NCBI GenBank assembly: GCA_963681505.1
Contig: OY811990.1
Coordinates: forward strand, 1,485,350-1,549,349
From: Eunapius fragilis
Lineage: Eukaryota; Porifera; Demospongiae; Spongillida; Spongillidae
DNA length: 64,000 nucleotides
Direction of reading: 5' to 3'
In this document: in pieces, positions 16,997-64,000 of the stretch
How the letters are laid out: every line of letters starts with the position of its first letter
Numbering within the stretch: the first letter of the stretch is position 1
Made by a program: the position numbers and the translations under genes
The notes under the pieces: generated by a model
What the model was told of the DNA's origin: nothing
Databases searched by the model: none
Seen by the model: the letters and a program-made list of their open reading frames with translations, nothing else

Positions 16997-19900
16997 ATGG
17001 TGTCTCATATCATCTTTGCTGCGGCCCTCCTACTGACGGCTGATAGTAAGTCAAATCGGGCGCTGCATATAGTTTGGCCACATGCAACGTATATACACGA
17101 ATATACATGTGTTCCATGTGTTCTTCCCCTCTCGATCCCTAAACTGTTCGCTCTTTTTGTACGTTGTTTTGCGTTCAAACCATACATGCTAGGGATGATT
17201 TACACACACATTCAAATTTACCCGGTATGGTAGTAGCAATGTTTTGTATTGCGCTTTTTTTTTGCCTTATTGACCTGTTGCGGCCGAAACCATTATCGTA
17301 TAAATATTATTACCTTGCCCCAAGTTTATTATGAAATCATTACTTTTTGTTGATGGGAGTTGTTAGACTAAGTGCGCTCTGCTGGAAAACGTGCAAGTTT
17401 GAACCATGCCACATACATGTGCTGTAATAGATTGCAAGAATCGCTATAGCGTGGAGGGGGGAGAATAAGAACTTATACCGTTTTCCGGCAGACAAGAACA
17501 GAAAACAGATATGGGTTACGGTAGACAACTTGAATCTTGATAGGCGAAGGAGTACAAGACATGTATTTGGCTGCATAGTATGATGCTAACGTTGGAGGAA
17601 GCTCTGATTTTGTAGCACAAGCAGACTTGGAAGGTGTACAAGTAGGCACATGAACCCAGGAACAACAGTAAATGTAGGATTTGCATGTGTCGTAAAGTGC
17701 ATGCATGTCATGCGACATTTAGGAATGGTCTAGAATGACATGTGGAGGAGCAAAGGGTTGGAGTGTGAAGAATTCATCTGGGCTCAAACTGATGTCAGAA
17801 ACAGGACATGCTCCAAAAGCTAGCTAGAGAATGTATTGTAAGCTAATGCTACTCACTGCACAACTCTATTACCTTCTTAGAATATGGCTGGTTCCACAAG
17901 CATGGCTGTGATGTATAAGTATATACAAACCTCACCAAGTCTGTAATGCAAACCTTGTGCTGCAGCTCTACACATAACATAGCACCTCTGCGCCACAGCA
18001 AAAAAAAAAAATTGACAAATCATCATTTTGATTCCACAAGTGATCTATTTTTTCATATCTGTGTTATCAAAAAACTTTTTTTTTGCTGTGTGTGCAATGC
18101 AGGTACAATTTCCAGTAATATGGTTTGTGGTTTATCTGCTGTGATGGTGTTACTTTTGCCATGAGGATAAAATTTCCATTACCATTGTCACGATAATAGA
18201 CTGCTCGAACCCAACCACTGAAATGGAAGTAGTGAAAACGTGACATATCTTTAGTTATACACATCGCCTTATGTAATAATTGTATGGCTGTAAGGCTTTA
18301 AAAGCCTTCTACATCTCTCTGATGAAGTGACAAATACGTATAATCGTGAGGGAACTCTATAGACCCCTTGCCGTGTCATCCCGGGAAGGATCAAAACATT
18401 AGCGGTCGTATTGTTTTGGACCAAAACGTGTTCGTATTTCGAATTTATGTTTTCAAAATAACGCACATGTTTTGGTCCAAAACAATATGTCCGCTAACGT
18501 TTTGATTCTTCCTGGGATGACGCGGCAAGGGGTCTATTGGAGGCTCGATTGAGTCATCCTCGATCCATAATTCAGCATTTAAATTACACACCAACAAGTG
18601 ATCTGTTTTTCATATCTGCACCGAAATGATAACAGTTTAGAAACAGATATGAAAAAACAGATCACTTGTGGTATCAAAATATGATTTACGTTATTTTTTT
18701 TTGCTGTGATTGTTAAGATCTTCTCCTTGATGCTCACCATATATAGACACTGTGTTTTTCGCTCATACTTTTCCAGGTCCCTTCAGCGAATCACTGTAAC
18801 TCATTTCAACACCACAATGTTATTAGGGAAGCTAGCGCACTCGGCTTCTCAAACATTTGCCCACCAAAATGGCCAGCAAAGAGTAATAATCGGAAGCCTC
18901 GCTAGAGACTTCCATATAGGTTTTGACCCCGACTATGAATTTACATAAAATCCAGCGACCCAACCGTAGCTTCGCTCCCGACGATCGGATCGTCTAATCT
19001 GTTGCGGCAATCGATCTAGTCAAAACTGAGTAGTTTCGTTTTTGTTTCACGTCATAGAACCACGTGGTTGTCGAGAACGAAAAATACTGCGTCTTCGTTC
19101 CCCTTCCAAAATAATGGGCGGGTCGTCTTCTGCTTCTTCTTGCTTTCTTAGGAAGTCATAACTCGGACCGGAACACTTTTAAGCAATGAAAATTGCACCA
19201 ATAGATTTAGAATTTGCTGGAGGACTCGCCTTAGTCGATGTTAGGCTTTGATACACAAAAGCCTAAAAGCCTATATACGGTCTTATCAAGTCTAATTAAG
19301 CAAAAGTTGAATTAAATCAGTTAAATGAAAGGGGGGAAACCGATGATGCAACAGTGATTTGGGTGTTAAAAAAAAATTAAAGAAACAAGTAAATAAAAAC
19401 ATTCTCTCTGAGAAAGTTGGTTGGATATAGGTTTTGCAGGCAAATAGTATACTGGATGGTGTAAAAAGCAAGGAAACAAGTTTATCAGAAGGGAAAATGT
19501 AATAGTCCTATATTTAGCACAGAAACAGCATATGCCTTAGTCGAAGTGTGCTAAATATAGGACTATTTCCCTTCTGATAAAACTTGTTTCCTTGCTTTTT
19601 ACACCATGCAGTATACTATTTGCCTGCACTGAAAACCTATATCCCACCAATTTTCTCAGGGAGAATGTTTTTATTTACTTGTTTCATAACAAACTTGGGT
19701 CAAAGGTAACAATTTTATACGATAATGGTTTCGTGCCGCAACTGATCTATTCCTGCATGGCAATTGGCACCTCGGTTCTGTTAATATATGTGCATATGGA
19801 TGTCAGCGTAATTAAAGTAAAACAAATTCAATGTGTGTGCATGTACATGTAACTATTCAACGGACATTTTTGTGACCGCTGGCTCTATTCCATACACTTT

Positions 19901-21788
19901 AGTTCAGTACTCATTTGGTGCCACTATTCTAAATAGTCCTCAGGACCTTGATGGTCTTTATGATAACACCAGTGTGATAGTAGCGGGATCAGTCATCCAG
20001 CTCTTCTGTTCAGCCAGTGGACAGTTCACTGCTCCCTACATACAGTGGACCAGGAATAATATCACCATTCCAGAAACTGCACAGTTGCCTCATCTGATGG
20101 TCAAGAGTAGGACAGAGAACAACACCATCACTTCTTCAGTCCTCACTATCTATGGTTTCTCTTCAAGTGATAATGGAAGCTATCAGTGCAGTGCTTCGGA
20201 AATCAACAGCAGTAGTTTGAGTTATCCATTACTGCTAATAGGTTAGTATCATGCAGATCTGTGGCTTCAATCAAATTGCTCACCCTTTACTCTACAGCTG
20301 TCAATGGCTCCAACATATTGAAGATAACACGAGAACTTAGTAACTCCACATCAGACAGAACATATGTTCCTCTTGGAAGTTCAAATATTTCAACCAATGG
20401 AACCTTTCTGAGATGCTCAGCTGAACAGCCTTCTTCATCCTTTCATGCTGCACCCAGTGTGATATGGTTGAAGGATGGGAGACAGCTATATGGTGATGGG
20501 GTTAGGGTTGTTGTGACAACTACCAATACTACTGCTGGGGCATCAAACAGGACTGTAAGCTTTGTCCGTATCTTCAACTTCAGTCAGTCTGATGCTGGAG
20601 TGTACCAATGTGTGTTTCATGACACACCATCCCATGGAGGAGAGGTCATCACCACTAGACTGTTCAAAGTGGACACAGGTACAAACAGCCTAATTTACAT
20701 GTGGAATATGGTATTGGAAGTGTTCTTTTTAAAAATTCTATAGGTCCAGTCTGCTTAACTGCCCTGGTCCCCTCATCAGCTACCTTATGTCCCCCTGAGC
20801 CTCTGGTCCTCCAAGTGGAGGCAAGAGGAGGGTATGCTGGTATTAAATGGACCAGGACACCAATAGCTCTGAGTGTCAGCAATGGTGAACTGGTAGACTT
20901 CCAGCAGATATTAGTGAGGACTGTGACATCAGAGGAGGATTGGGGACTATATTCAATTGTCTTGTCAACTCAAGGAATAAATACTTCACTGCACTTTACA
21001 AGTGTGAACATTTCTATAGCTAATTGCAGTGGAGCAAACGGTAAGATGCCATGGGTGTCAGTAGTATGCCTCTTCTATAAATTCCAACCTCCCATGATCA
21101 TTTCAACAACACTTTTATTTCCCCTACTTGTGTAGCTATGGCCATCCCAAGTAGCCATACGTCCTATGCTGTGGGTCACATATTGCCACCAATGTTGCCT
21201 GTATACGTGTCTGTGCCAGGAACCGTTCTCATCATGGCCGTGGGTATCGCATCTGTGATGATTATAATTATATTCAGATGGCGCAAGAAGCATAAAAGGT
21301 ACGGGTGACCCATAATTTATTCATGTACCGTGCTGACCAGCGCACATTCCGTGCATAGGATAGAAATAGCTGCGTCCAAGAAGTGTGCGCAAAGATCAGA
21401 TAGGGCTGATTCCAATGTTCTGCGCGGTGCCAATGATTGGACCCTCCCACAATCTTCCCATGGGGATCTCAAGGCGGAGGACCTTGAGGACACTTTGGTA
21501 TACGACTACGCGCGCATTGCCTTTCAGCCTGACCACTCCAAGCAGTATGCGTTTGGTAATGGTACCAACGGAGGCGATAAAAGGTCACGTGTCCCAGCCT
21601 GGGCCCACTTGAGTGCCACAGTAGGGTCTCTACCCCCTGACCACGCCTTACCAGCTGGCCGGGACATGGAATACAGTGTCCCAAGCCATCCAATGGCACT
21701 TTATGCGAGTTCTGGCGTGCAAGATGATGCAGCGGGCGTCTATTCATTCCTGAACTCGAATGATAGCTTAGACTACATAAATTTTTGA
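16997..21788 (+). CDS. Three-Ig-domain type I transmembrane receptor A, YxNF tail
   Basis: Predicted cell-surface receptor of 552 residues; function unknown. Exons: 16997-17045 signal peptide (MVSHIIFAAALLLTAD), 19903-20241 Ig1, 20298-20678 Ig2, 20744-21040 Ig3, 21136-21298 stalk plus membrane segment, 21359-21788 tail. All junctions are GT-AG; the first four are phase 1, the last phase 2, and the total is in frame. Ig1 (LFCSAS, IQWTRNN, DNGSYQC) and Ig2 (LRCSAE, VIWLKDG, DAGVYQC) have canonical Cys-Trp-Cys cores. Ig3 keeps the Trp but lacks both core cysteines (GLYSIV in the second place). There are many N-glycosylation sites. The membrane segment VLIMAVGIASVMIIIIF is followed by RWRKKHKR. 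The tail has LVYDYARI, MEYSV, VYSFL and a C-terminal DYINF, a Grb2-type YxN site. The first intron, 2.9 kb, holds several mobile elements. Confidence 0.85.
17406..17580 (+). pseudogene. THAP-like zinc-finger fragment in intron 1 of receptor A
   Basis: A start codon followed by MPHTCAVIDCKNRY and, in another frame, LYRFPADKN and IWV resembles the N-terminal half of a THAP DNA-binding domain (C-x4-C, FP motif, Trp). The frame is interrupted. Homologous fragments occupy the same place in B, C and D. Whether it came from a host THAP gene or a P-like transposon cannot be told. Confidence 0.6.
17995..18091. mobile_element. Small MITE with CACAGCAAAA ends
   Basis: Ends CACAGCAAAAAA and TTTTTTTTGCTGTG enclose about 97 bp. 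The corresponding positions in B, C and D (CCCCTGCAATGCAGG) lack it, so it inserted after duplication of the receptor gene. Confidence 0.65.
18361..18535. mobile_element. Palindromic MITE with AGACCCCTTGCC ends
   Basis: Inverted arms AGACCCCTTGCCGTGTCATC and GATGACGCGGCAAGGGGTCT enclose 175 bp. Flanks CTCTAT and ATTGG match the uninterrupted CTCTATTGGAGG in copies B and D, which gives an AT or TAT target duplication. It is a young insertion specific to copy A. Confidence 0.75.
18583..18707. mobile_element. Second CACAGC-family MITE in receptor A intron 1
   Basis: It contains ACAAGTGATCTGTTTTTCAT and its inverse and ends TTTTTTTTTGCTGTG. Flanking ATT may be the target duplication. Copies B, C and D read AAATTGTTAAGAACTTC or similar without it. 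It shares its end with the MITE at 17995-18091. Confidence 0.6.
18891..19682. mobile_element. Hairpin-tipped palindromic element (HT family), copy in receptor A intron 1
   Basis: One end is a hairpin (GGAAGCCTCGCTAGAGACTTCC-like). A long arm follows with TTGACCCCGACTATGAATT, a TCTTCTGCTTCTTCTTGC tract and ATAACTCGGACCGG, then an FB palindrome at about 19381-19682 ending ACTTGT. Copy D reads GAGTAATAATTTCACAAC across the site, so the insertion lies exactly between AATAAT and TTCATA with no target duplication visible. Relatives are at 36510, 37945, 39714, 52198, 53974 and 60516. Confidence 0.8.
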
Positions 21789-21876
21789 TACCCACGCATG
21801 TATTTTTGAAAACTGCACGTGATTGACTTCATAGAGCAACATCTTATAGTGTATGTTATTTTGAACAGCGTGTTAA

Positions 21877-22415: not shown

Positions 22416-22419
22416 TTAA

Positions 22420-23980: not shown

Positions 23981-24830
23981 CATAGATATAATACGGAAGG
24001 GATTGGAAACGGATCACGTGATGCAATACATTGCATAGGCTGGCTTACGGCCTGTCCCTGTAGGATCAATTAACACGTTTGCCACTGCGTTTCAGATACT
24101 TTTTCGAAGAAAACCGGTCGTTGTGTATAGTTTGAGGCTTTTTCCTTTATTCTGTCACTTGCTTAAGAGGTATGGATATTAGTAGATATGTTTTTATGAC
24201 TGTAAATGATTTTAGACCCGAGTTTTTTTAAAGACCCGCGTTCCGTGTCTTTGCAAAGCCTTTGTGGGCGTGTAGGAGACGTTAGCGTTGTCATATTGGC
24301 TACTTTATTGTAGAATCGAGTGGAGCTTCGTGAGACAAATCGAACTGGCTAGGTATTATCTCAAAAGCTCTTGGCGCACTTTAGATGCCCACAACCAGTC
24401 TCATGTCAAAATCTTTATTGCCAACTTTTGTACGAGTGTACAACACGCATTTGAGATAATACCTAGCCAGTTCGATTTGTCTCACGAAGCTCCACTCGAT
24501 TCTACAATAAAGTTGCCAATATGACAACGCTAACGTTTCCTACACGCCCACAAAGGCTTCGCAAAGACACAGAACGCGGGTCTTTAAAAAAACTTGGGTC
24601 TAAAATCATTTACAGTCATAAAAACATATCTAAAAATATCCATACCTTTTAAGCAAGTGACAGAATAAAGGAAAAAGCCTCAAACTATACACAACGACCG
24701 GTTTTCTTCGAAAAAGTATCTGAAACCATAGATATTATCCGCCATTTTATTTTATTTTTCCTGCATGGATGGAACCTGTTGATTGGTGTTAAAGACTCCC
24801 GTTTCCAATCCCTTCCGTATAATATCTATG
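23981..24830. mobile_element. 850-bp foldback element with long inverted arms
   Basis: Ends CATAGATATAATACGGAAGG and CCTTCCGTATAATATCTATG are inverted. Long internal arms also pair, for example GAATCGAGTGGAGCTTCGTG near 24310 with its reverse near 24485. GCTGCAC flanks both sides (23974-23980 and 24831-24837), a likely 7-bp target duplication. No coding sequence. Confidence 0.8.
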
Positions 24831-26917: not shown

Positions 26918-29900
26918 ATGGAGTCTCATATAATCTTTGCTGCTGCACTCCTACTGACGGTTGAAAGTAAGTCAAATCGGCCGCTGCGTTGTAGTTCGGC
27001 CACATACAACGTATATACGTGCATACAAATGTGTTCTTCCCCTCTCGATCCCTAAACTGTTCGCTCTTTCTGTGCGTTGTTTTGTGTTCAAATAATACAT
27101 TGCCAGTGGAATGCGCCTAGGGAGCAATTACGCGTACATCCGGCGTACGTTGTAGTAGCAAATTTTGTATTGCGCTTCTTTGCCTTATTGACCAGTTGCG
27201 GCGCGAAACCATCATTGTATAAATATTGTAACCTTTGCCCTAGGTTTATTATGAAATCATTGCTTTTTGTTCGTCGCCAATTAGATGAGAGTTGTTAGAC
27301 CAAGTGCGCTCTGCTGGAAAAAATGCGCAGGTTTGAACCATGCCACATACGTGTGCTGTAGTAGATTGCAAGAATGGCTGTAGCAAGGGGGAAAATAAGA
27401 AATTATACCATTTTCCGACAGACAGGGATATGGTTTGTGGTAGACAACGAGAATCTTGATAGGAGAAGGAGTACAAGACATGTATTTGGCTGCATAGTAA
27501 GATGTTAACGTTGGAGGAAGCGTTCTGTAGCAAAAGCAGACTTGGAAGGTGCACAAGTAGGCACAGGAACCCAGAACAGCAGGAACAACAGTAAGTATTG
27601 CTGCCTTTGAGTAGGATTTGTGTCATAAAGTGCATGCATGTCATACGACATTTTAGAGTTTAGGAAAGGTCTAGAATGACATGTGGAGGAGCACGGGGTT
27701 GGAGGGTGAAGAATTCATCTGGGCTTCTCTGAGCCAAGGGCAGCTCAAACTGATGTCAGAAACAGGATATGCTCCAACCTACAAAAAGCTATAGCTAGAG
27801 AATGTATATCGTAAACTAATGCTACTTACTGCACAACTCTATTACCTTCTTAGAATATGCCTGGTTCCACAAGCATGGTTGTGATGTGTATCTGTAATGT
27901 AAACTATATGCACATGCATAGCACCCCTGCAATGCAGGTACAATTTCCAGTAATGACGGCGCCTGTTTTCTTGCTCACTCCAATCCAGCCATCTTGTGGT
28001 TTGTCGTTTATCCGCTGTGCTGGTGTTATACTTTTGCCACGAGGATACAATTTCCATTACCAATGTCACGATAATAGACTGCTCGAATAGACTGCTCGGA
28101 CTGTTCGTACCCCATCACTGAAATGGAAGTAGTGAAAACCGCATCCCCTTATGTAATAATTGTATGGCTGTAGGGCTTTAAAAGCCTTCAGCTTCTCTCT
28201 GGTGAATTCTCCAGAAGTGTCTACCAAATACGTATAAACGTGAGGGAACTCTATTGGAGGCCCGCGCGAGACATCATCGATCCTTTATTCAACATTTAAA
28301 TTGTTAAGAACTTCTACGCTCTTCTCCTTGCTGCTTACCATATGTAGACACTGTAGTTTTCGCTCATAATTTTTCAGGTCCCTTCAGCGAATCACAGTAC
28401 GTAGCTCATTTCGACACCACGATGTTATTTATTAGCGAAGCTAGCGCACTCGGCTACAGAAATTTGCCCACCAAAATGTAATGATTTTATAACAAACATG
28501 GGTCAAAGGTAACAATTTTATACGATAATGGTTTCGCTCCGCAACTGATCTATTCCCTGCATGGCACCTCGGTTCTGTTAATAACTGTGCATGTGGATGT
28601 CAACATATGCATGCCATTTAATAGACAACAAATTCACTGTGTGTATTCATGTACATGCATGTGACTATTCAGAGGACATGAATTTTGTGACCGTTGGCTC
28701 TATTCCATACACTCCAGTTCAGTGCTCGTTTGGTGCCACTATTCTAAATAGCCCTCAGGACCTTGATGGTCTCAATGATAACTCCAGTGTGATAGTAGCG
28801 GGATCAGTCATCCAGCTCTTCTGTTCAGCCAGTGGACAGTTCACTGCTCCCCACATACAGTGGACCATGCAGGAACAATATCACCATTCCAGAGACTACA
28901 CAGTTGCCTCATCTGATGGTCAAGAGTAGGACAGAGAACAACACCATCATTTCTTCGGTCCTCACTATCTATGGTTTCTATTCAAGTGATAATGGAAGTT
29001 ACCAGTGTTGTGCTTCTGACATCAGTAACAGTACTTTGAGTAAACCATTACTGTTTACAGGTTAGTATCATGCAGATCTGTATTATTTCAATCATCAGCT
29101 CATCCTTTACTCTGCAGCTATCAATGGCTCCAACATGTTGAAGTTAATACGAGAACTTAATATCACCACATCAGACAGAACATATGTTCCTCTTGGAAGT
29201 TCAAATATTTCAACCAATGGATCCTTTCTGAGATGTTCAGCTGAACAATCTGGGACATCCGCTCTTGCTGCACCCAGTGTGGTATGGTTGAAGGATGGGA
29301 CACAGCTATCTGGTGATGGGGTTAGGGTTGTTGTGACAACTACCACTATCATGGGATCAAACAGGACTGTAAGCTTTGTCAAAATCTTCAACTTCAGTCA
29401 GTCTGATGCAGGAGTGTACCAGTGTGTGTTCTATGACACACCATCCCAGGGAGGAGAGGTCATCACCACTAGACCATACAAAGTGGACACAGGTATTGTA
29501 TTTGATATCACATCACATCATAATGAATAACTTACCTTTAGGTCCTATCAATTTAAATCCAGTATCCAACTGTTCAATTATCCTCCACCCCCCTGAGCCT
29601 CTGGTCCTCCACGTGGAGGCAGGAGGAGAGTATGTTGGTATTCAATGGACCAGGACACCAATAGCTCTGAATGTCAGCAGTATTGAATTGGTGGACTTCC
29701 AGCAGACTTTGTTCCGAGCTGATACTACAGTGAATGACATTGGTTTGTACAAAGCTAAGCTGGTGTCAAGTAACTCCAACATGGCTATGCCTTCGATCAT
29801 ACTTAATGTTACTCTGCTGGCAGATCAACTGGGTAAGTATGTGCTTATCTTGAAAAGTATGATGCCTAAGTTAATGGGATTTCACTTCATACCTCAGGCC

Positions 29901-31241
29901 TTTCATACAAAGGGAAATATTCCTATAATATCACCAGTGATCCAGGAATATTCCATGACATCCTCCACCCATCTGGTGAATTCTTACCAAATGTGTCACA
30001 TTTTTCAGTGTATCATCAAAACTTGACTACAGCTTCTGGTGTGGGTGAAGAGCATCGATGTAGTTCGGACCTACAATCCCACGTTGACACTTCAGGCAAA
30101 ATGTTGTTGGAAATATTTGCTATCGCGGGCACCTTTGTTACAATCTGTGTTACATCATCGTTTTTGTTCTTCACTGCTCTTATAGTATATTCATGGAGGA
30201 TAAGACACACTGGTAATAAAGTGTAAGTGCAACTAACTATATGTTTATTTTTGTGCTTGCATGCACATGTGGTCCTGGTGAGATACTAAACATGTATGGA
30301 TTGAGTGAATCTAGTGATTCTACTATCCTCAAAGTTTTATATAACTGCTACATGCAGATAACCCAAACTTCAAATTAACGTTTTAAAATTCTGAAAAAAT
30401 CGATGCACTTTGGCAATTGTTGGTGTGCTTCCTTACTTCTGCTGAGAGAGCAGCTGACACAGCTGTGGTACCTGCTTCAGCAAAAAATCAAGATGATATG
30501 CTTTCCAAGATTGAGTTTGAATTTAACATAGTTGACTTTATTATAGCTATAAATACTGAAACATAATTTTATCAAGCACACAGAGAATATTTTTGGGGTG
30601 GCTACCTCTCAAAAATACTCTGGTTGCATGGAGTACCAAATTTCTTTGCATAAACAGGTACAAATAGGCAGCTGGCTGGGATCTCTAGTGACCACTGAGC
30701 CATACCAGCTAGTAGGCAGATGAATAATGTATGCGACACATGTAACGTGATGAAATTGTCAGTGGTTTTTCAATCTTCTTTGTTGTCAGCTCTCAATATG
30801 TAGCAGCTATATAATTTAGTTGATGAAATTAATCAGTGTGCTGGTTGTTACCCCTGTATCTCTCCCAACACATTACTCGGACTCGGGGGTTTGAAACATT
30901 TTTAATATTGAACTGTTCATGATAAAATGATACATTGTGGCATGTAATTATAATTAGCATTTTTAAATTTCCGCATATTACGTTCATGGTAAGAAACCAA
31001 TTAGGCAATAAAGGAGTGCTCCATCTTATAATATACAGGCATTCACACATTCATTAATGATGCTCGTTTCCATTTTAGTATTACAACTAGAACTATTGAA
31101 CAGCCAAATGGATCAATAACTCCAGTTGTTGGAAGTAATTATTCTATTTTAACCCGTCCAAACAAGGCATATACTGAGTTCGAAGAAGCTCGAGAGAACA
31201 TGATGAATGTTGACAGTTGTCATCCAGTTACATCTATGTAG
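26918..31241 (+). CDS. Three-Ig-domain receptor B with ITIM tail (paired partner)
   Basis: Exons: 26918-26966 signal peptide (MESHIIFAAALLLTVE), 28718-29060 Ig1, 29118-29492 Ig2, 29542-29832 Ig3, 29898-30222 stalk and membrane segment, 31079-31241 tail ending in TAG; AATAAA follows at 31276. Junctions are GT-AG with the same phases as receptor A. Signal peptide, Ig1, Ig2 and the first half of Ig3 match A, C and D closely; from about 29707 on the sequence is different. The stalk is longer, the membrane segment is IFAIAGTFVTICVTSSFLFF with ALIVYSW after it, and the roughly 53-residue tail contains SNYSIL, a canonical ITIM ([SIVL]xYxx[IVL]). Ig1 carries a 4-nt insertion (28867-28870) that shifts its frame. 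Skipping this symmetric phase-1 exon would restore a two-Ig protein; otherwise B is a pseudogene. Confidence 0.75.
27345..27520 (+). pseudogene. THAP-like fragment in intron 1 of receptor B
   Basis: Reads MPHTCAVVDCKNGCSKGENK and LYHFPTD from 27345, the best preserved start of the four copies, then loses the frame. It has the same position and orientation as in A, C and D. Confidence 0.6.
27935..28345 (-). pseudogene. Antisense SWIM-type zinc-finger gene fragment in intron 1 of receptor B
   Basis: On the minus strand, from an ATG near 28343: SSKEKSVEVLNNLNVE, then VSRGPPIEFPHVYTYLVDTS, EFTREKLKAFKALQPYNYYI, and further on the NCTCIAG start of a SWIM zinc site. YLV-S-G-FTRE-LK-YK and the CxC-AG motif are recalled features of invertebrate SWIM-domain proteins. 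It is broken and ends before the second half of the zinc site. Confidence 0.6.
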
Positions 31242-40367: not shown

Positions 40368-40403
<36 letters not shown>

Positions 40404-40636: not shown

Positions 40637-40974
40637 GATAAATTTCAAACGACAGTATTGATCACAATATGCATAAAACATGTCAAACAAGTTCTAAGTA
40701 CCATGTTGGAGATATGTGCATGTGTGGGTGAGGGTGGGGAGGGGGATAGGGAAGGTTCATGTTATGCATGTCCAAATGCAGTGATATCAGAAATTAATTT
40801 TACCAGGCCCATATTGAAGATGGCATTTCTGGCCACCATGGACCCACGACAGACAGCAAGTTTCAGTTGCTGCTGTTGGGTGAAAGTGACAGTAGAATAC
40901 ACAAAATCACATTTTGAGCAGACAGCAAATAATGTCTGCTGGCCTATGTGGAAAGAGAAGTGGAAGGAATATTA

Positions 40975-47170: not shown

Positions 47171-48441
47171 CAGCATGCAGCACAAATAGAATAAACATGA
47201 TACAAATCTGCACCAAGAAATACAATGCATGCATATGTGCTTAAATTGATTTCATCCAGAAGGATTTTAAAGACATATAAGTGAATAAGTCCATGATGCT
47301 TGGTGCTTAAAATTATGTTTAACGACTTAGTTATATATTGCCCTCAATCCACTTGTTCACCAAGCAGTGACATGTCAGCATGGAGGGGGGTGTTATTGTA
47401 CTGCTGTGTGATGTACTTGAATATATTTTTCGCTGGGCCCAACAATCAGTGGCAGGGTCGTTACGTTGTCTCAAGCATCCAGTTGATTTGCATTTTGCTC
47501 ATCAGTGGCTGTGCCCAGTGTAGACCTGTCTTAATGGACATCACAGTGACTTCGCCACTCACATTTCAGGTTGTAGTTACCATTACATTTAAATGTACTT
47601 ACGCAAGGCTCAGGTAAGCGACAATGATGGCTGTAATTTCGACTGCTTATTTTCCATAATGGTTATGAAAGATTTAATCATCAAGGCATACATAGATAAC
47701 TGTTTAAAAACTCAACCTATTCATTCATATTCAACTGAGAGTAAAAGGCACTATCTGAAAATTACTTATTGATGCATTCATGGGCCTACTGATACAGTTG
47801 TATGTAGTTAGCACATGGTGATGCATCTAACCTTGCAACAAAGCAAATTGTATTAACATAGTATGTTGATGCTACAACCTCCATTAGCCATAGCATTGGC
47901 TGCTTTCAACTCCTCCTCCCCTGTAGAAGTGAGGGGGTGGTGGATGAGGCTTCTACAGTTTTGGGATTTTTTTTCAATCCCCCATGTTCATTGTACTCAA
48001 CTGTAACGCAAGCGCAAAACTATTATCCAAGGCGCCATAACTGCTTGGAGAGTTGGGCATATAGTGGATAATGGATATGTTTTGAAACTTCAAATGAATT
48101 GTTTTTATTTTTTTTTAGTCATTTAAAAGAAAATGCTAAACAAAACAGATTGTGCGTTTGCAACAACAAATAACAAATAATATGTGTCATTTTCTCTGGC
48201 GAATCATTTTTAAGCAGGCGAACACTATAACTGTACACTAACTATACGTACGTTAATATCATTATTATCTTTCTATGCTGCACTTCTAACCACTTGTATT
48301 CTGTATATTGTCCGTTTCCTACATATGCATCAGCACAAGCATCACGTGAGATCAAGAACTGGTATAGCAATTATGCATGTATATAGGCGCATCCTGTTGC
48401 TGTTTGCAACTGTACAAGAACAAGAAATTGCGTCTTTATTG
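47171..48441 (+). repeat. Receptor promoter module, copy E
   Basis: Same order as copy A from GCAGCACAAATAGAATAAAC to the first exon, but the C-rich tract and following part (CCCCTATGTCC to ACAGCTGTTC) are deleted, joining at about 47988. Confidence 0.8.
48380..48385 (+). promoter_or_regulatory. TATA box of orphan exon E
   Basis: TATATA in CATGTATATAGGCGCATCC, 62 bp before the ATG at 48442. Confidence 0.6.
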
Positions 48442-48490
48442 ATGGAGTCTCGTATAATCTTTGCTGCTGCACTCCTACTGACGACTGAAA
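48442..48490 (+). pseudogene. Orphan receptor signal-peptide exon E
   Basis: 49-nt exon (MESRIIFAAALLLTTE) followed directly by the same GTAAGT donor as in A-D. The first intron is cut off about 150 bp later at 48640-48655, where a rearranged inverted block starts, and no Ig exon lies behind it before copy C. It could still be transcribed, and could in principle splice to the exons of C, about 7.4 kb away, since the phases match. Confidence 0.8.
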
Positions 48491-48654
48491 GTAAGTCAAA
48501 TCGGGCGCTGCGTGTAGTTCGGTCCCATACAACGTACATATACGCACATATAAATATGTTCTTCCCCTCTCGATCGGTAAACTGTTCACTCTTTCTGTGC
48601 GTCATTTTGTGTTCAAACTATACATTGCAAATACGATGCGCCTAGGGCAAAAGA

Positions 48655-49329: not shown

Positions 49330-49880
49330 ACTGGGAAATGAAGAGGGGTCTCCTGCTCCATACAGTTCACACACTTTTTAATGTTAAACCCAAGTGCTGG
49401 GCCTTGTGAGCTAACTATACTCAAAGCTCTTAGCACAAAACTGATTTGCCTGCCAGTGAGCCATCATCCAAATACCAAGCATTGTGTGACAAATCCATCA
49501 GTGTCGATCATGTTTAATATTCGTTGGAGAACAAGAGCAAACAGAAAGGACCCAGTGGATCCCCCTGCTGTACTCCCACCTGTGAGGTGAGTATCCCCAG
49601 TTGGTGCCATAGAAGTGGGTGCTGGTTGTAACACCACGAAGTCAATGCAAATAATTCTGGGAAGTGCTGGGCACAGTCATCAAGAAACGCTTGTTGTGAC
49701 ATCAGATTAAAGGCATTAGTCATGTCAACCTTGAGTACTACAAAGTGCTTATCAGAACAATGGTCTTCGATGCAGCTCCGGAGGTGGTGACAATTTTTTC
49801 CACACCCTGTGGGCAGGCTACTCCCAATTGCAAAGGTTGAAAGAAATCGGCTGCTTTAACTCTGACGAGATGGCAGAAGC
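49330..49880 (-). mobile_element. Reverse-transcriptase element fragment, inverted, broken
   Basis: On the minus strand the RT core (MTNAFNLMSQQAFL, VQQGDPLGPF) of the same family as 11761-14786 is recognisable. Broken partial copy. Confidence 0.75.
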
Positions 49881-52197: not shown

Positions 52198-53059
52198 ACA
52201 AGTAAATAAAAACATTCTCTACGAGAAAGTTGGTGGGATATAGGATTTGATTATGACATTGGTGGTGTAAAAAGCAAGGAAACAAGGTCTTATCAGAAGG
52301 GAAAATGTCATAGTCCTATATTTAGCACATTTCTAGGGCATGTGTTGTTTGTGTGCTAAATATAGGACTATGACATTTTCCCTTCTGATAAGACCTTGTT
52401 TCCTTGCTTTTTACACCACCAATGTCATAGTCAAATCCTATATCCCACCAACTTTCTCGTAGAGAATGTTTTTATTTACTTGTTTTCTTTATTTTTTTTC
52501 ATACCCATTTAATTATACAAGACATTAGTCTCGTACCCAGACCGTCTATGACGTAAGCGATTATCGCTGTAAACAGTATAATCACTACGTCCATACGTAT
52601 GGACGTAGTGTTTACAGCGATAATCGCTTACGTCATAGACGGTCTGGGTACGAGACTAACAAGACATAGGAGGCTGATAGTCGATTGTTTATCAAACTAT
52701 TATATTATATAAAAGCGAGTCCTCCAGCCGATTCTGAAGCTATTGGTGAAATTTTCATCGCTTAGAAATGTTCCTGTCCTGAGTTATGCGTTGCCAAGAA
52801 GGAGAAGAATGAGAAGACGACCCGCCCCTTGTTCCGAGACTGGGTACGAGGACGGGCAGTACACTCTTGTTCTCAACAACCACGCGGTTCAGCGACATGA
52901 AACAAAAACGAAACTACTCACTTTTGACTTCTCGATCTATTGCTAAAACAAGCTACACGATCCGATCGTCGGGAGTGTTGTTACAGACGGGTCGCGTTTT
53001 TTTAATGACATTCATAGTCGGGGTCAAATCCTATATGGAAGTTTCTAACGAAACTTCCG
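52198..53059. mobile_element. Hairpin-tipped element (HT family) in promoter module C
   Basis: Nearly identical to 36510-37315: FB palindrome first (ACAAGTAAATAAAAACATTC), then the arm, ending in the GGAAGTTTCTAACGAAACTT hairpin. It contains a nested MITE at 52526-52658. It sits about 600 bp upstream of the receptor C start. Confidence 0.85.
52526..52658. mobile_element. Palindromic Mutator-like MITE with 9-bp duplication
   Basis: 133 bp, ends TAGTCTCGTACCCAGACC and GGTCTGGGTACGAGACTA, almost wholly palindromic. ACAAGACAT occurs on both sides (52517-52525 and 52659-52667) but only once at the matching place 36910-36918, a clean empty site. Confidence 0.9.
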
Positions 53060-53670: not shown

Positions 53671-56600
53671 ATGGAGTCTCATATAATCTTTGCTGCTGCA
53701 CTCCTACTGACGACTGAAAGTAAGTCAAATCGGGCGCTGCGTGTAGTTCGGTCCCATACAACGTACATACGCACATATAAATATGTTCTTCCCCTCTCGA
53801 TCGCTAAACTGTTCACTCTTTCTGTGCGTCATTTTGTGTTCAAACTATACATTGCAAATACGATGCGCCTAGGGAGCAATTACACTCACATCCGGCGTAC
53901 ATTGTAGTAGCAATATTTTGTATTGCGCTTCTTTGCCTTATTGACCAGTTGCGGCGTGAAACCATCATTGTATTAGGAACTATATAGGAATTGACCCGGG
54001 TCGTGAAATCATTAAAAAAACGCGCCCCTCGTATAACTCGCATACCGAGAAAAGGATAGTGTTGCTATTTGTTGCTATCGAACCAGAAGGCAAAGACAGT
54101 CATTTAAATGTTTTATTCCAGTCTTCGAACTGTTTGCTTTAAGAGAACAAAAAAGTTCGTGTTTCACCCTTCCCCAGGCCAAATCTTCTCCGTCGTCAAC
54201 GTCGTCGTCGTCGTCTTCTTCTTCCCGGGTAAGTATAACTTCGGATAGGAATGGTTTTTAAGAGCGCCAATTATACCAATCGCTTTAGAATCTCCTGGAA
54301 GGGCATCTTCAAGTATCAGATGTATGAATAAAACTGACATACGTAATCATTACGTAATGCGTAGTGTTAAATAATGTTTTTCTTTACTTGTAAATATTGT
54401 TACCTTAGGTTTATTATGAAATCATTACTTTTTGTTGGTCGCCAATTAGATGGGAGTTGTTAGACTAAGTGCGCTCTGCTGGAAAACATGCGGCAGGTTT
54501 GAACATGCCACATACGTGTGCTGTAGTAGATTGCAAGAATGGCTATAGCAAGGGGGAAAATAAGAAATTATACCATTTTCCGATAGACAAGGATATGGGT
54601 TGCGGTAGACAACTTGAATCTTGATAGGCGAAGGACTACAATACATGTATTTGGCTGCATAGTATGATGTTAATGTTGGAGGAAGCTCAGGTTCTGAGCA
54701 CAAGCAGACTTGGAAGGTGTTCAAGTAGGCACAGGAACCCAGGAACAACAGGAACAACAGTAAATGTTGCTGCCTTTGGGTAGGATTTGTGTCATAAAGT
54801 GCATGCATGTCATACGACATTTTAGAGATAAGGAAAGGTCTATAGAATGGCATGTGGAGCAGCAAGGGGTTGGAGGGTGAAGAATTCATCTGGGCTTCTC
54901 TGAGCCAAGGGCAGCTCAAACTGATGTCAGAAACAGGATATGCTCAAACCTACAAAAAGCTATAGCTAGAGAATGTATATCGTAAGCTAATGCTACTTAC
55001 TGCACAACTCTATTACCTTCTTAGGATATGCCTGGTTCCACAAGCATGGTTGTGATGTGTATGTATATACAAACCTCTGCAAGTCTGTAATGTAAACTAT
55101 ATGCGTCCATGCGACTACACATAACATAGCACCCCTGCAATGCAGGTACAATTTCCAGTAATGACGGCGCCTGTTTTCTTGCTCACTCCAATCCAGCCCT
55201 CTTGTGGTTTGTCGTTTATCCGCTGTGCTGGTGTTATTTTTGACACGAGGATACAATTTTCATTACCAATGTCACGATAATAGACTGCTCGAATAGACTG
55301 TTCGAACCCAACCACTGAAATGGAAGTAGTGAAAACGTAACATATCTTTAGTTATACGTATCCCCTCATGTAATTATTGTATGGCTGTAGGGCTTTAAAA
55401 GCCTTCAGCTTCTCTCTGGTAAATTCTCCAGAAGTGTCTACCAAATACGCATAAACGTGAGGGAACTCTAATTGGAGTCACCCGCGCGAGACATCATCGA
55501 TCCTTTATTCAACGTTTAAATTGTTAAGAACTTCTACGCTCTTCTCCTTGCTGCTCGCCATATGTAGACACTGTATAGTTTTCGCTAATACTTTTTCAGG
55601 TCCCTTCAGCGAATCACTGTACGTAGCTCATTTCGAGACACCACGATGTTATTTATTAGCGAAGCTAGCGCACTCGGCTATTCAGAAATTTGCCCACCAA
55701 AATGGCGACCAGCAAAGAGTACTAGAGTAATAATTTCATAACAAACTTTTGGGTCAAAGGTAACAATTTTATACGATAATGGTTTCGCGCCGCAACCGGT
55801 CTATTCCCTGCATGGCACCTCGGTTCTGTTAATAACTGTGCATATGCATGTCAACGTATGCATGCCATTTAAAGTACAACATATTTACATGTAACTATTC
55901 AGAGGACATGAATTTTTGTGACCGCTGGCTGTATTCCATACTTCAGTTCAGTGCTCGTTTGGTGCCACTATTCTAAATAGTCCTCAGGACCTTGATGGTC
56001 TTTATGATAACTCCAGTGTGATAGTAGCGGGATCAGTCATCCAGCTCTTCTGTTCAGCCAGAGGACAATTCACTGCTCCCCACATTCAGTGGACCAGGAA
56101 CAATATCACCATTCCAGAGACTGCACAGTTGCCTCATCTGATGGTCAAGAGTAGGACAGAGAACACCACCATCATTTCTTCGGTCCTTACTATCTATGGT
56201 TTCTATTCAAGTGATAATGGAAGTTACCAGTGTTGTGCTTCTGACATCAGTAACAGTACTTTGAGTAAACCATTACTGTTAACAGGTTAGTATCATGCAG
56301 ATCTGTATTATTTCAATCATCAGCTCATCCTTTACTCTGCAGCTATCAATGGCTCCAACATGTTGAAGTTAATACGAGAACTTAATATCACCACATCAGA
56401 CAGAACATATGTTCCTCTTGGAAGTTCAAATATTTCAACCAATGGATCCTTTCTGAGATGTTCAGCTGAACAACCTGGGACATCCTCTCTTGCTGCACCC
56501 AGTGTGGTATGGTTGAAGGATGGGGCACAGCTATCTGGTGATGGGGTTAGGGTTAATGTGACAACTACCACTATCATGGGATCAAACAGGACTGTAAGCT

Positions 56601-57832
56601 TTGTCAAAATCTTCAACTTCAGTCAGTCTGATGCAGGAATGTACCAGTGTGTGTTCTATGACACACCATCCCAGGGAGGAGAGGTCATCACCACTAGACC
56701 ATACAAAGTGGACACAGGTTTCAAAAAAGCCTAATTTACATGCATGTAGAATATGGTAATGGAAGTGTTCTTTTTTATTCCACTAGGTCCAGTCTGCTTA
56801 ACTGCCCTGGTCCCCTCATCAGTTACCCTCTGTCCCCCTGAGCCTCTGGTCCTCCAAGTGGAGGCAGGAGGAGAGTATGCTGGTATTCAATGGACCAGGA
56901 CACCAATAGCTCTGAATTTCAGCAATGATGAACTGGTAGACTTCCAGCAGACATTTGTGAGGACTGTGACATCAGAGGAGGACTGGGGACAATATTCAAT
57001 TGTCTTGTCAACTCAAGGAATAAATACTTCACTGCACTTTACAAGTGTGAACATTTCTAATTGCAGTGGAACAAACGGTAAGATGCCAAGGGTATCAGTA
57101 GTATGCTTCTTCTATAAATTCCAACCTCCCTTGATCATTTCAACAACACTTTTATTTCCCCTACTTGTGTAGCTATGGCAATCCCAAGTAGCCATACGTC
57201 TCATGCGACCGTCACCATGGGTCACATATTGCCACCAATGTTGCCTGTATACGCTTCTGTGGCAGGAGCCATCTTCATCATGGCCGTGGGTATCGCATCT
57301 GCGATGATTATAATTATATTCAGATGGCGCAAGAAGCATAAAAGGTACTGGTGACCCATAAATGTATTTATTCATCCATGTACTGTGCTGACCAGCGCAC
57401 ATCCCGTGTAGGATAGCGTCCAAGAAGTGTGCGCAAAGACCAGATAGGGCTGACTCCAATGTGCTGCGCGGTGCCAACGATTGGCCGCTCCCGCAACGTT
57501 CCCATGGGGATCTCAAGGAGGTGGACCTTGAGGACACTTTGGTATACGACTACGCGCGCATTGCCCCTCAACCCGACCACTCCAAGCAGTATGCGTTTGG
57601 TAATGGTACCAACGGAGGCAATGAAAGGTCACGTGTCCCAGCCTGGGCCCACTTGAGTGCCGCAGTAGGATCTCTCCCCTCTGACCACGACTTACCAGCT
57701 GACCGGGACATGGAATATAGTGTCCCAAGCCATCCAATGGCACTAAATGCGAGTCCTAGCGTGCAAGATGGTGCGGCGGGCGACTATTCATTCCTGAACT
57801 CGAATGATAACTTCGACTACACGAATTTTTGA
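53671..57832 (+). CDS. Three-Ig-domain type I transmembrane receptor C, YxNF tail
   Basis: Predicted 548-residue paralogue of receptor A, apparently intact. Exons: 53671-53719 signal peptide (MESHIIFAAALLLTTE), 55947-56285 Ig1, 56343-56717 Ig2, 56787-57077 Ig3, 57173-57344 stalk and membrane segment, 57412-57832 tail. Junctions GT-AG, phases 1,1,1,1,2; total in frame. Ig1 (LFCSAR, IQWTRNN, DNGSYQC) and Ig2 (LRCSAE, VVWLKDG, DAGMYQC) are canonical. Ig3 has IQWTRT and DWGQYSIV without core cysteines. The membrane segment is IFIMAVGIASAMIIIIF followed by RWRKKHKR. The tail keeps LVYDYARI, MEYSV, DYSFL and the C-terminal DYTNF (YxN). The first intron of 2.2 kb has a shortened HT element and the THAP-like and SWIM fragments. 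Confidence 0.87.
53974..54391. mobile_element. Hairpin-tipped element (HT family), shortened, in receptor C intron 1
   Basis: Arm of the GACCCGGGTCG subtype (AGGAACTATATAGGAATTGA start, TCGTCGTCGTCGTCTTC tract near 54205) ending TTTTTCTTTACTTGT, with the FB core deleted. The same site in copy B reads TTGTATAAATATTG, so no target duplication is visible. Confidence 0.75.
54512..54665 (+). pseudogene. THAP-like fragment in intron 1 of receptor C
   Basis: Homologue of the fragments at 17406, 27345 and 61362. The start codon context is altered here. The FP motif and the Trp (IWVAVDNLN) are readable in separate frames. Confidence 0.55.
55135..55561 (-). pseudogene. Antisense SWIM-type zinc-finger gene fragment in intron 1 of receptor C
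   Basis: Minus strand from an ATG at 55561 (MASSKEKSVEVLNNLNVE) to the NCTCIAG start of a SWIM zinc site near 55135, with KITPAQRINDKPQEGWIGVS in between. It is the longest open stretch of the four copies but still broken. The plus-strand CCAAAATGGCGACC at about 55697 lies about 130 bp upstream of this start and resembles a YY1-type initiator motif. Confidence 0.6.
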
Positions 57833-59205: not shown

Positions 59206-59237
<32 letters not shown>

Positions 59238-60197: not shown

Positions 60198-63100
60198 ATG
60201 GAGTCTCATATCATCTTTGCTGCTGTACTCCTACTGACGGCTGGAAGTAAGTCAAATCGGGCGCTGCATGTAGTTCGGCCCCATACAACATATACGCGCA
60301 TATAGATATGTTCTTCCCCTCTCGATCCCTAAACTGCTCTTTCTGTGCGTTGTTTTGTGGTCAAACTATACATTGCTAATAGAATGCGCCTAGGGAGCAA
60401 TTACACTCACACTCAATCTACCCGGCGTACGTTGTAGCAGCAATATTTTGTATTGCGCTTCTTTGCCTCAGTTATAGAGTCGGCGATAGACCAGTTGCGG
60501 CGCGAAACCATTATCAGGAACTACGATAGTAGTTCCTATATAGGAATTGACCCGGGTCGTGAAATCATTAAAAAAACGCGACCGGCGTATAACTCGCGTA
60601 CCGAGAAACGGACAGTGCTGCTCATTGTTGCTATCGATCCAGAAGGCAAAGGCGGTCATTTTAATGTTTTGTTCCAGTCGTCAAACTGTTTGCTTTAAGA
60701 GAAAAAAAATGTTCGTATTTTACCCCGTCCCCAGGCCAAATCTTCTCCGTCGTCGTCGTCGTCGTCGTCGTCTTCTTCTCGGGTGAATATAACTCCGGAT
60801 AGGAATGGTTTTAAAGAGCGCCAATTATACCAATCGCTTTAGAATATCCTGGAAGGACATCTTCAAGTATCAGATATATGAATAAAGCTTAAAACTAACA
60901 TACGTAATCATTACGTAATGCGGATTGTTAAATTGAAGCGTTCCCATGGCAAAATTACGTATACAAGTAAAGAAAAACATTCTCTAACGAGAAAGTTGGT
61001 GGGATATAGGAATTGGAGGCAATGGTGGTGTTAAAAGGAAGGGAACAAGGTTTTGAGAAAAGGGTAATGAGACAAAAATCCTATATTTGGCACTTCTTTT
61101 GGTTCTGTTACATTTACACGTGCTCAATATGGGATTTTTGTCTCATTACCCTTTTCTCAAAACCTTGTTCCCTTCCTTTTAACACCACCATTGCCTCCAA
61201 TTCCTATATCCCACCAACTTTCTCGTTAGAGAATGTTTTTCTTTACTTGTCGTATAAATATTGTTACCTTATTACGAAATCATTACTTTTTGTTTGTCGT
61301 CATTTTGGTGGGAGTTGTTAGACTAAGTGCGCTCAGCTGGAAAACGTGCAAATTTGAACCATGCCACATACATGTGCTGTTACAGTAGTAGATTGCAAGA
61401 AAATCGCTATAGCCAGGGGGGAAATAAGAAACTATACCGTTTTCCGGCAGACAAGGACATGCAGAAAATATAGATATGGGTTGCGGTGGACAACTTGAAT
61501 CCTGATAGGCGAAGGAGTACAAGACATGTATTTGGCTGCATAGTATGATGTTAACGTTGAAGGAAGCTCCGGTTTTGTAGCAGACTTGGAAGGTGTACAA
61601 GTAGGCACAGGAACCCAGGAACAACAGTAAATATTGCTGCCTTTGGGTAGGATTTGTGTAAAGTGCATGCATTTCACACGACATTTTATAGTGAAAGAAA
61701 GATCTAGAATGAGATGTGGAGGAGCAAGTAGTTGGAGGGTGAAGAATTCATCTGGGTTTCTCTGAGCCAAGGGCAGCTCAAACGGATGTCAGAAACAGGA
61801 CATGCTAGCTCCAGCCTACAAAAACCTAGCTAGAGATCTAGAATGTATTGTAAGCTTAGCCTAATGCTACTTATTGTATATCTCTATTACAATATGCCTG
61901 CATGGTTCCACAAGCATGGTTGTGATGTGTATATACAAACCTCAGCAAGTCTGTAATGTAAACCTTGTGCGTCCAGCTCTACACATAACATAGCACCCCT
62001 GCAATGCAGGTACAATGTCCAGTAATGATGGCGCCTGTTTTCTTGCTCACCCCAATCCAGGCCTCATGTGGTTTGTCATTTATCCGCTGTGATGGTGTTA
62101 CTTTTGCCATGAGGATACTATTTCATTACCAGTGTCACGACTAGACTGTTCGAACCCAACCACTGAAATGGAAGTAGTGAAAACGTAACATATCTTTAGT
62201 TATATGCATCACCTTATGTAATAATTGTATGGCTGTAGGACTTTAAAAGCCTTCAGCATCTCTTTGGTAAATTCTATCAAACACGTATAAACGTGAGGGA
62301 TCTCTATTGGAGGCCCGCGCGAGACATCCTCGATCCATAATTCAACATTTAAATTGTTAACGCTCTTCTCACCATACATAGACACTTTAGTTTTCGCTCA
62401 TACTTTTTCAGGTCTCTTCAGCGAATCACTGTATGTAGTTCATTTCGACACCACGATGTTATTTATTAGCGAAGCTAGCGCACTCGGCTACTCAAAAATT
62501 TGCCCACCAAAATGGCGACCAGTAAAGAGTAATAATTTCACAACAATCTTGGGTCAAAGATAACAATTTTATACGATAATGGCTTCGCGCCGCAACTGAT
62601 CTATTCCCTGCGTGCAATTGGCACCTCAGTTCTGTTAATAACTGTGCATATGCATGTCAACGTATGCATGCCATTTAAAGTACAACATATTTACATGTAA
62701 CTATTCAGAGGACATGAATTTTTGTGACCGCTGGCTCTATTCCATACTTCAGTTCAGTACTCGTTTGGTGCCACTATTCTAAATAGTCCTCAGGACCTTG
62801 ATGGTCTTAATGATAACTCCAGTGTGATAGTAGCGGGATCAGTCATCCAGCTCTTCTGTTCAGCCAGTGGACAGTTCACTGCTCCCTACATACAGTGGAC
62901 CAGGAACAATATCACCATTCCAGAAACTGCACAGTTGCCTCATCTGATGGTCAAGAGTAGGACAGAGAACAACACCATCACTTCTTCAGTCCTCACTATC
63001 TATGGTTTCTCTTCAAGTGATAATGGAAGCTATCATTGTTGCGCTTCTGACATCAGTAACAGTACTTTGAGTAAACCATTACTGTTAACAGGTTAGTATC

Positions 63101-64000
63101 ACAGATCTGTATTATTTCAATCATCAGCTCATCCTTTACTCTGCAGCTATCAATGGCTCCAACATGTTGAAGTTAATACGAGAACTTAATATCACCACAT
63201 CAGACAGAACATATGTTCCTCTTGGAAGTTCAAATATTTCAACCAATGGATCCTTTCTGAGATGTTCAGCTGAACAGCCTTCTTCATCCTCTCTTGCTGC
63301 ACCCAGTGTGATATGGTTGAAGGATGGGACACAGCTATCTGGTGATGGGGTTAGGGTTAATGTGACAACTACCAATACCACTATGATGGGATCAAACAGG
63401 ACTCTAAGCTTTGTCCGTATCTTCAACTTCAGTCAGTCTGATGCTGGAGTGTACCAGTGTGTGTTCTATGACACACCATCCCAGGGAGGAGAGGTCATCA
63501 CCACTAGACCATACAAAGTGGACACAGGTTACAAACAGCCTAATTTACATGTAGAATATGGTAATCAATGGAAGTGTTCTTTTTTTTTTAATTCTATTAG
63601 GTCCACTCTGCTTAACTGCCCTGGTCCCCTCATCAGTTACCCTCTGTCCCCCTGAGCCCCTGGTCCTTCAAGTGGAGGCAGGGGGAGAGTATGCTGGTAT
63701 TCAATGGACCAGGACACCAATAGCTCTAAATGTCAGCAGTGATGAACTGGTAGACTTCCAGCAAATATTTGTGAGGACTGTGACATCAGAGGAGGACTGG
63801 GGACTATATTCAATAGTCTTTTCAATAAATACTTCACTGCACTTTACAAGTGTGAACATTTCTAATTGCAGTGGAGCAAACGGTAAGATGCCATGGGTGT
63901 CAGTAGTATGCCTCTTCTATAAATTCCAACCTCTCTCGATTTGACAGACCATTTCAACAACACTTTTATTTTCCCTACTTGTGTTGTAGCTATGGCAATC
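60198..64000 (+). CDS. Three-Ig-domain receptor D, cut by the window edge
   Basis: Exons seen: 60198-60246 signal peptide (MESHIIFAAVLLLTAG), 62753-63091 Ig1, 63147-63527 Ig2, 63601-63882 Ig3, and the first 11 bases of the stalk/membrane exon from 63990. Frames and splice phases match A and C. Ig1 (LFCSAS, IQWTRNN, DNGSYHC) and Ig2 (LRCSAE, VIWLKDG, DAGVYQC) have canonical cores. Ig3 again lacks core cysteines (DWGLYSIV). Ig3 continues like A and C beyond the point where B diverges, and the exon after it starts with the same CTATGGCAATC as C, so a YxNF-type tail is expected but not visible. Confidence 0.85.
60516..61250. mobile_element. Hairpin-tipped element (HT family) in receptor D intron 1
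   Basis: Hairpin AGGAACTACGATAGTAGTTC plus CT, arm with TTGACCCGGGTCGTG and a TCGTCGTCGTC tract (60747-60775), FB palindrome 60963-61250 ending ACTTGT. The matching site in copy A reads CCATTATCGTATAAATATT, so at most 1 bp is duplicated. Confidence 0.85.
61362..61555 (+). pseudogene. THAP-like fragment in intron 1 of receptor D
   Basis: MPHTCAV start at 61362, then frame breaks. Same location and orientation as in A-C. Confidence 0.55.
61997..62375 (-). pseudogene. Antisense SWIM-type zinc-finger gene fragment in intron 1 of receptor D
   Basis: Minus strand: NVELWIEDVSRGPPIE near 62340-62290, then the HYFHFSG region near 62180-62160. The SWIM CxC region is also degraded. Broken. Confidence 0.55.

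Follow-up and report, generated by a model that had tools for sequence, protein, structure and literature searches.

A putatively recombining tandem array of immunoglobulin-domain receptor genes in the sponge Eunapius fragilis

Results

Layout of the receptor array

A stretch of 64,000 nucleotides from the sponge Eunapius fragilis (NCBI GenBank assembly GCA_963681505.1, contig OY811990.1, positions 1,485,350 to 1,549,349 of the forward strand; hereafter the window) carries four type-I membrane receptor genes with immunoglobulin (Ig) domains, arranged in tandem on the plus strand and designated A, B, C and D. A preliminary description, made from the letters alone, had proposed a tandem Ig receptor family here. 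Its receptors A, B and C are borne out, and the array is extended by D and by a truncated fifth unit. Judged from the sequence, it appears to be a real and interesting set of recombining receptor genes, and what can be said of its function is inferred.

The genes follow one exon plan: a signal-peptide exon, three Ig exons, a transmembrane (TM) exon and a tail exon, the last seen in A, B and C. Receptor D reaches the end of the window and is cut at 64000, so any tail exon would lie outside. Intron phases 1-1-1-1 are common to A, C and D, and a phase 2 intron follows the TM exon in A and C. The spliced models encode 552 residues in A and 548 in C. All 19 modelled introns are GT-AG, which is consistency and not proof because homology and open frame guided a manual choice of the splice sites. 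Leaving aside intron 1 and, in B, intron 5, the introns measure 49-107 bp; such short introns are compatible with a compact genome and prove nothing. The signal-peptide exon is homologous across all five units. The features are as follows.

16997-21788, plus strand: receptor A, whole gene (spliced model)
16997-17045, plus strand: A exon 1, signal peptide, GTAAGT donor
19903-20241, plus strand: A exon 2, Ig1 (Pfam Ig_3, 2.6e-11 for the exon)
20298-20678, plus strand: A exon 3, Ig2 (Pfam ig, 22.2 bits, cut-off 21.8; Ig_3 2.2e-5, below cut-off)
20744-21040, plus strand: A exon 4, Ig3 without both canonical cysteines (weak FGFR1 Ig match)
21136-21298, plus strand: A exon 5, transmembrane segment (hydropathy peak 2.7)
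21359-21788, plus strand: A exon 6, tail ending YSFLNSNDSLDYINF (spliced model)
26918-31241, plus strand: receptor B, whole gene (spliced model)
26918-26966, plus strand: B exon 1, signal peptide (spliced model)
28718-29060, plus strand: B exon 2, Ig1 with a 4-bp insertion near 28866-28870 and TAG at 28927-28929 (alignment, tblastn)
29118-29492, plus strand: B exon 3, Ig2, open, 0 synonymous differences from C
29542-29832, plus strand: B exon 4, divergent Ig3 with an embedded patch at 29574-29712
29898-30222, plus strand: B exon 5, stalk and TM, no DNA similarity to A or C
31079-31241, plus strand: B exon 6, 53-residue tail with SNYSIL and YSILTRPNKAYTEF (AATAAA at 31276)
47286-48647, plus strand: fifth unit, a promoter-proximal repeat and an orphan signal-peptide exon (48442-48490), no Ig exons
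53671-57832, plus strand: receptor C, whole gene, six exons (spliced model): 53671-53719, 55947-56285, 56343-56717, 56787-57077, 57173-57344 and 57412-57832
60198-64000, plus strand: receptor D, cut by the window end (spliced model), exons 60198-60246, 62753-63091, 63147-63527, 63601-63882 and 63990-64000

Retention of the last intron would bring stops at 21306-21308 (A), 30224-30226 (B) and 57352-57354 (C), a few residues past the TM exon, giving nearly tail-less receptors. Read unspliced, exon 5 of B adds about ten cytoplasmic residues before its stop.

Ectodomain folds

The window holds 317 open frames of at least 60 residues. Pfam was searched with the three spliced models and seven window frames, with seven receptor pieces, and with ten more window frames that include the Ig1 exon of A and one repeat (45056-45556). 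With Ig_3 scores of 65.7 (A) and 65.6 bits (C) against a cut-off of 30 (E about 6e-18), A and C are assigned to the immunoglobulin superfamily on domains above the curated cut-off. Ig1 and Ig2 of both receptors give two Pfam Ig domains and keep the canonical Cys/Trp/DxGxYxC pattern, as the preliminary description had said of their cysteines. The nearest solved relatives of Ig1 include Ig domains of adhesion molecules and receptor tyrosine kinases: searched by itself against PDB sequences, the Ig1 exon of A hits FGFR4 (1e-6) and DCC (2e-6), and full-length C has five weak matches there, the best being neurofascin (E 0.0047).

No Pfam family matched Ig3 up to E 10. An alignment of the four Ig3 exons weakly matches an FGFR1 Ig domain (E 0.052) among solved structures, and because Val and Ile occupy the disulphide positions in this alignment, Ig3 is read as an Ig domain without the canonical cysteine pair. 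AlphaFold models had a mean predicted local distance difference test (pLDDT) score of 33 for Ig2 and 44 for Ig3 (four rows each). One strong hydrophobic segment follows the Ig exons, and ahead of it lie 15 N-glycosylation sequons in A and 16 in C. Neither A nor C contains a sushi family match in Pfam up to E 1. Pattern searches for relatives gave 74 viral-contig and 19 prokaryote-contig matches, none of which was upheld by tblastn.

Receptor B lacks an intact Ig1

In an alignment of the four Ig1 exons, that of B alone holds four extra bases. The insertion, absent from A, C and D and outside any homopolymer, shifts the frame to the TAG at 28927-28929, so that translation ends after 86 residues; tblastn puts the frame break between 28866 and 28871. 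Receptor B thus has no intact Ig1 and is disabled in this assembly, and the earlier picture of B as an intact inhibitory partner bearing the same Ig1 fails here. The broader claim of a nearly identical ectodomain holds in part: Ig1 and Ig2 are alike at the DNA level, but the Ig1 of B is frameshifted, and its Ig3 and TM differ from those of A and C save for a patch of 140 bp.

The exons of B after exon 2 are open. In the unbroken genes each of exons 1-4 ends in phase 1, so skipping exon 2 would restore the frame, and in a rescue model limited to whole-exon skipping the product would be a 400-residue protein consisting of signal peptide, Ig2, Ig3, TM and tail. Among 33 YAG sites, that which serves the SNYSIL exon as acceptor has the highest rank by pyrimidine content, and an AATAAA lies 35 bp past its stop.

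Sequence exchange between the copies

To measure exchange, silent positions (intron 2 and synonymous Ig2 sites) were compared with intron 1 as a yardstick of divergence. B and C show 0 differences at about 146 silent positions against 120/1716 in intron 1 (p 7e-5), C and D about 3/144 against 191/2117 (p 0.002), and B and D about 3/145 against 311/1638 (p 2e-9); a deficit is also seen for A and D (p 0.006). The deficits mark a block that starts at the end of Ig1, spans intron 2 and reaches into Ig2 as homogenised among B, C and D. In a four-gene alignment, the longest agreement runs of C-D and B-D fall in the same block, and that of A-D inside Ig1.

The boundaries of similarity point the same way. 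B and C are 98.4% identical in Ig2 and 100% in intron 2, and similarity falls to 55% in intron 3, past exon 3. Beyond this breakpoint there is no DNA alignment except in the Ig3 patch, where 140 bp of B (29574-29712) are 90% identical to C (56819-56958). Fourfold sites within the patch are identical at 18 of 20, and the adjoining DNA has an identity of 40-47%. Identity between A and C reaches 96% in intron 4 and 95% in Ig3, as against 78% in intron 1. The mosaic formed by the A-C and B-C comparisons is what recombination between tandem copies would leave.

C and D are 87% alike over an alignment of 2898 columns. Intron 1 of both contains extra sequence at a matching position (53974-54390 in C, 60515-61268 in D), absent from A and B, which suggests that they are sister copies. 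An inverted similar copy of this extra sequence lies at 40260-40641. In addition, a repeated stretch lies in intron 1 of A (17.4-17.8 kb) with counterparts in B, C and D; by eye, its plus strand resembles what may be a THAP-type zinc finger in decay. Minus-strand frames in intron 1 (54449-54943 and 61286-61747) had no Pfam match up to E 0.1.

Distribution of change in the ectodomain

Among A, C and D, the ratio of nonsynonymous to synonymous rates (dN/dS) is 0.27-0.44 in Ig1 and 1.0-1.4 in Ig2; in Ig3 it ranges over 0.36-2.0 on few changes. The A-C comparison gives 0.44 for the TM exon and 0.5 for the tail. The contrast between Ig2 and Ig1 reaches p 0.039 for A and C (Fisher) and p 0.002 when pairs that are not independent are summed. 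The 6 differences between B and C in Ig2 are all nonsynonymous, against 0 synonymous ones (p 0.099). The changes in Ig2 are also unevenly placed: the BC and C'-D stretches, 36 of the 126 columns, hold 9 of the 13 columns variable among B, C and D (p 0.0016), and 13 of 29 variable columns when A is added (p 0.026).

The cytoplasmic tails share a tandem tyrosine pattern

The tail motifs of the preliminary description are all in the sequence: A and C end in YxNF (DYINF and DYTNF, respectively), and SNYSIL lies within the last exon of B. The activating/inhibitory layout that it read from them is not established by these motifs. An immunoreceptor tyrosine-based inhibitory motif (ITIM) was defined as [SIVL]xYxx[IVL], and an activation motif (ITAM) as Yxx[LI]-x6-8-Yxx[LI]. 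The ITIM pattern occurs once in B and in neither A nor C, and 7.7% of composition-preserving shuffles of the B tail, which has 2 tyrosines, contain it. YxN occurs in 29% (A) and 35% (C) of such shuffles. At these rates neither motif alone goes beyond chance, and the lone ITIM (p 0.077) and YxN (p 0.29, 0.35) were discarded as evidence by themselves.

A tandem module, YSxL-x6/7-YxxF, is present in all three tails seen: A YSFLNSNDSLDYINF, C YSFLNSNDNFDYTNF and B YSILTRPNKAYTEF. Its tyrosines are 10-11 residues apart, which is ITAM spacing, with L at +3 of the first and F at +3 of the second. The pattern Y..[LI]x6-8Y..[LIF] arises in 1.0% (A), 0.5% (C) and 0.08% (B) of shuffles. A phase 2 intron after the TM exon precedes the tail exons of A, C and B alike (B being counted without its broken exon). 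From the shared module and the same kind of intron, the A/C-type and B tails may be homologous, and a clean activating/inhibitory split between them is not supported.

Sorting-type YxxPhi motifs (such as YARI, YSFL and YSIL) number 3 in A, 3 in C and 2 in B, above shuffle means of 1.3, 1.0 and 0.5 (p 0.12, 0.06 and 0.05). A catenin-binding tail of cadherin type, prompted by the NFDYTNF end, was considered and rejected, with no Pfam or PDB support: no cadherin family matched the A/C tails in Pfam or PDB sequences up to E 10, a search in which weak similarities may be missed.

Neighbouring sequence in the window

A minus-strand frame at 4878-7838 encodes two cyclase domains whose best PDB match is adenylate cyclase 9 (E 1e-126), which marks the window as animal DNA. 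The overlapping minus-strand frame at 7397-8488 had no Pfam match and by eye looks to be the hydrophobic N-terminal part of the cyclase gene.

A hAT transposase dimerisation domain lies at 1646-1930 on the plus strand (E 7e-7), and the first 900 bases of the window are largely repeated at 25.0-26.0 kb. Reverse transcriptase matches below the Pfam cut-off at 12978-13328 and 44776-45267 (plus strand) and 49517-49855 (minus strand) lie in three related retroelement fragments, one of them inverted. A fold-back element at 24089-24726 has 280-base arms, 97% complementary, with 78 bases between them. A second fold-back element is found at 36510-36809 and 52198-52497 (99% identical), the latter copy upstream of receptor C. 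No RNA families at gathering score and no tRNAs were found in the window.

Discussion

A tentative model and its rivals

The explanation towards which we lean, tentatively and at slightly less than even confidence, is that these genes form a recombining array and encode recognition or adhesion receptors whose tails are ITAM-like, with one member disabled in this assembly. The ligand bound by Ig1 and Ig2 would sit on other cells or on microbes. Through gene conversion or unequal crossing-over, the Ig2-centred block would stay alike in B, C and D, with the 3' half left free to differ, and Ig2, with its changes clustered in the BC and C'-D loops, would be the likeliest contact domain. The tails would signal via the tandem-tyrosine module, which would be a substrate of Src-type kinases and, once phosphorylated, a binding site for a tandem-SH2 protein of Syk or Shark type, with the YxN of A and C as a possible added Grb2-type site. 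B would be a recombinant in which the family 5' half was joined to another 3' half, represented in this assembly by a null or exon-skipped allele. Read directly from the DNA are the order of the genes and their exon layout, the exchange of sequence, the frameshift and the pattern common to the tails. That the genes are expressed, that they recognise a ligand, that the tails are phosphorylated and which sign the signal has are inferred.

A number of observations weigh against this model. All the evidence is DNA of one assembly, one individual and one species. The silent deficit of A and C in the Ig2 block is unclear (p 0.07), and the Ig1 exons of B and C have 10 differences, 7 at third positions, a pattern of constraint and not of fresh homogenisation. 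A run-length test for conversion gave p < 0.01 in 11 of 12 cases, with p 0.22 for B-D in the three-gene set. The longest runs of B-C, A-B and A-C, however, lie in intron 1, outside the Ig exons, and rates are uneven along the gene; the test was therefore given little weight, and the case for conversion leans on the silent-site comparison, the breakpoint and the patch. As regards contact, an Ig2 ratio near 1 fits relaxed constraint too, the FG loop of Ig2 is nearly constant, and the loop borders were set by hand from Cys and Trp positions because the AlphaFold models had low pLDDT. As regards the tails, the tandem pattern was picked after inspecting them, a strict ITAM occurs in 0 of 3, the last position being F in all 3, and A and C, as near copies, are not independent. 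According to PMC5978004, the invertebrates that have vertebrate-like Syk/Zap70 are only those that also have CARD-CC/Bcl10. Some early animals may therefore lack a Syk reader; the other candidate named in that paper is Shark.

In a plainer account, the genes are a tandem Ig adhesion family whose YxxPhi motifs set the surface level, with B a dying pseudogene. The motif counts above their shuffle means, the relatedness of Ig1 to FGFR4, DCC and neurofascin, the degenerate Ig3 and the frameshift of B all fit it. Nevertheless, adhesion alone leaves the silent deficit at Ig2, the clustering in Ig2 loops and the shared tyrosine spacing unexplained, and we hold this account to be somewhat unlikely. 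The layout of paired receptors, claimed by the preliminary description, stands to the extent that alike Ig1-Ig2 regions are joined to different 3' halves with signs of exchange over the Ig2 block. Near-identical Ig ectodomain parts in linked genes with different 3' halves are present, and would bind ligand in such a scheme; an intact partner is not, B being frameshifted in the one assembly and one allele at hand. That A and C are activating or Grb2-coupled and B inhibitory via its ITIM would agree with the fit of SNYSIL to the consensus and with the good acceptor and polyA signal of its exon. This division is improbable given the broken Ig1, the frequency of the motif in shuffles (p 0.077) and the ITAM-like spacing that the B tail has in common with A and C. 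Finally, C, D or other parts of the array might be haplotypes placed in tandem by the assembly, or the insertion in B an error or private allele. There is a single assembly, and C and D are 87% alike with a common insertion site in intron 1; but intron 1 diverges between the four genes by 7-24% of aligned bases plus large insertions, more than expected for simple haplotig copies, and no homopolymer surrounds the insertion in B. An assembly effect seems very unlikely.

Comparison with known systems

The recombining array with ITAM-like tails would be of a kind already known, its mechanism analogous to receptor systems described elsewhere. Among the matches listed in the open literature (titles and abstract starts, with most subscription papers outside), there was no matching non-vertebrate Ig family. 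In vertebrates, PMC5112662 and PMC5701461 describe a similar pattern of alike ectodomains and different 3' halves for paired receptors. For example, Xenopus CEACAM pairs were called from near-zero synonymous change in the converted exon together with nonsynonymous change in the binding face (PMC5112662). The likeness is that the exons of the ligand domain carry next to no synonymous differences within a pair, with nonsynonymous changes in the C-C'-C''-F-G strand regions. In CEACAM, the converted exon is the N-domain exon, and the pairs set ITIM against ITAM or ITAM-like motifs (PMC5112662); in the sponge array, the shortage of silent differences centres on Ig2 and the FG loop is nearly constant. 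SIGLEC11 and SIGLEC16 are likewise close tandem genes with ectodomains kept alike by conversion and different signalling halves, and the human null SIGLEC16P has a 4-bp deletion in exon 2, where B has a 4-bp insertion in exon 2 (PMC5701461). As described there, however, these receptors are vertebrate, have known glycan ligands and send opposite signals; the tails here are not shown to be opposed.

Ig1 matches PDB 8ovq and 8qpx (E 1e-3 and 6e-4), which we take to be Ig domains of the Geodia sponge adhesion molecule and receptor tyrosine kinase. Both are outscored by FGFR4 (1e-6) and DCC (2e-6), so no special kinship with the Geodia domains is suggested. The adhesion molecule (GSAM) is mentioned in PMC7916673.

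Among other invertebrates, the preliminary description had pointed to the Alr allorecognition proteins of Hydractinia, a resemblance that is an analogy by description. Alr ectodomains have lost the canonical Ig cysteines, a state similar to that of Ig3 here and unlike that of Ig1 and Ig2, which keep them. Alr genes are clustered Ig receptors with reported ITAM and ITIM motifs (PMC12065747, PMC11999971). Botryllus FcoR proteins are also clustered type-I Ig receptors, in whose tails ITIM, hemITAM and core YxxI/L/V motifs are possible (PMC12065747). At 520-610 residues with long tails, they resemble A and C in length; they differ in their V-Ig, sushi and two C2 domains and in their fester partners (PMC12065747), no sushi having been found in A or C and no partner recognised among the window frames examined.

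Taken further, the array would be a non-vertebrate counterpart of paired receptors, with homogenised recognition domains, different 3' halves, a YxxF ITAM-like module and one partner segregating as a null allele, similar to human SIGLEC16P; this fuller parallel is rather doubtful. A null allele of one partner would allow a genetic test of the pairing idea. If the receptors are expressed and signal through tyrosines, another animal lineage would join those with clustered, recombining Ig receptors of ITAM/ITIM type, as discussed for Hydractinia and Botryllus, and would provide concrete sequences for testing the age of this signalling logic.

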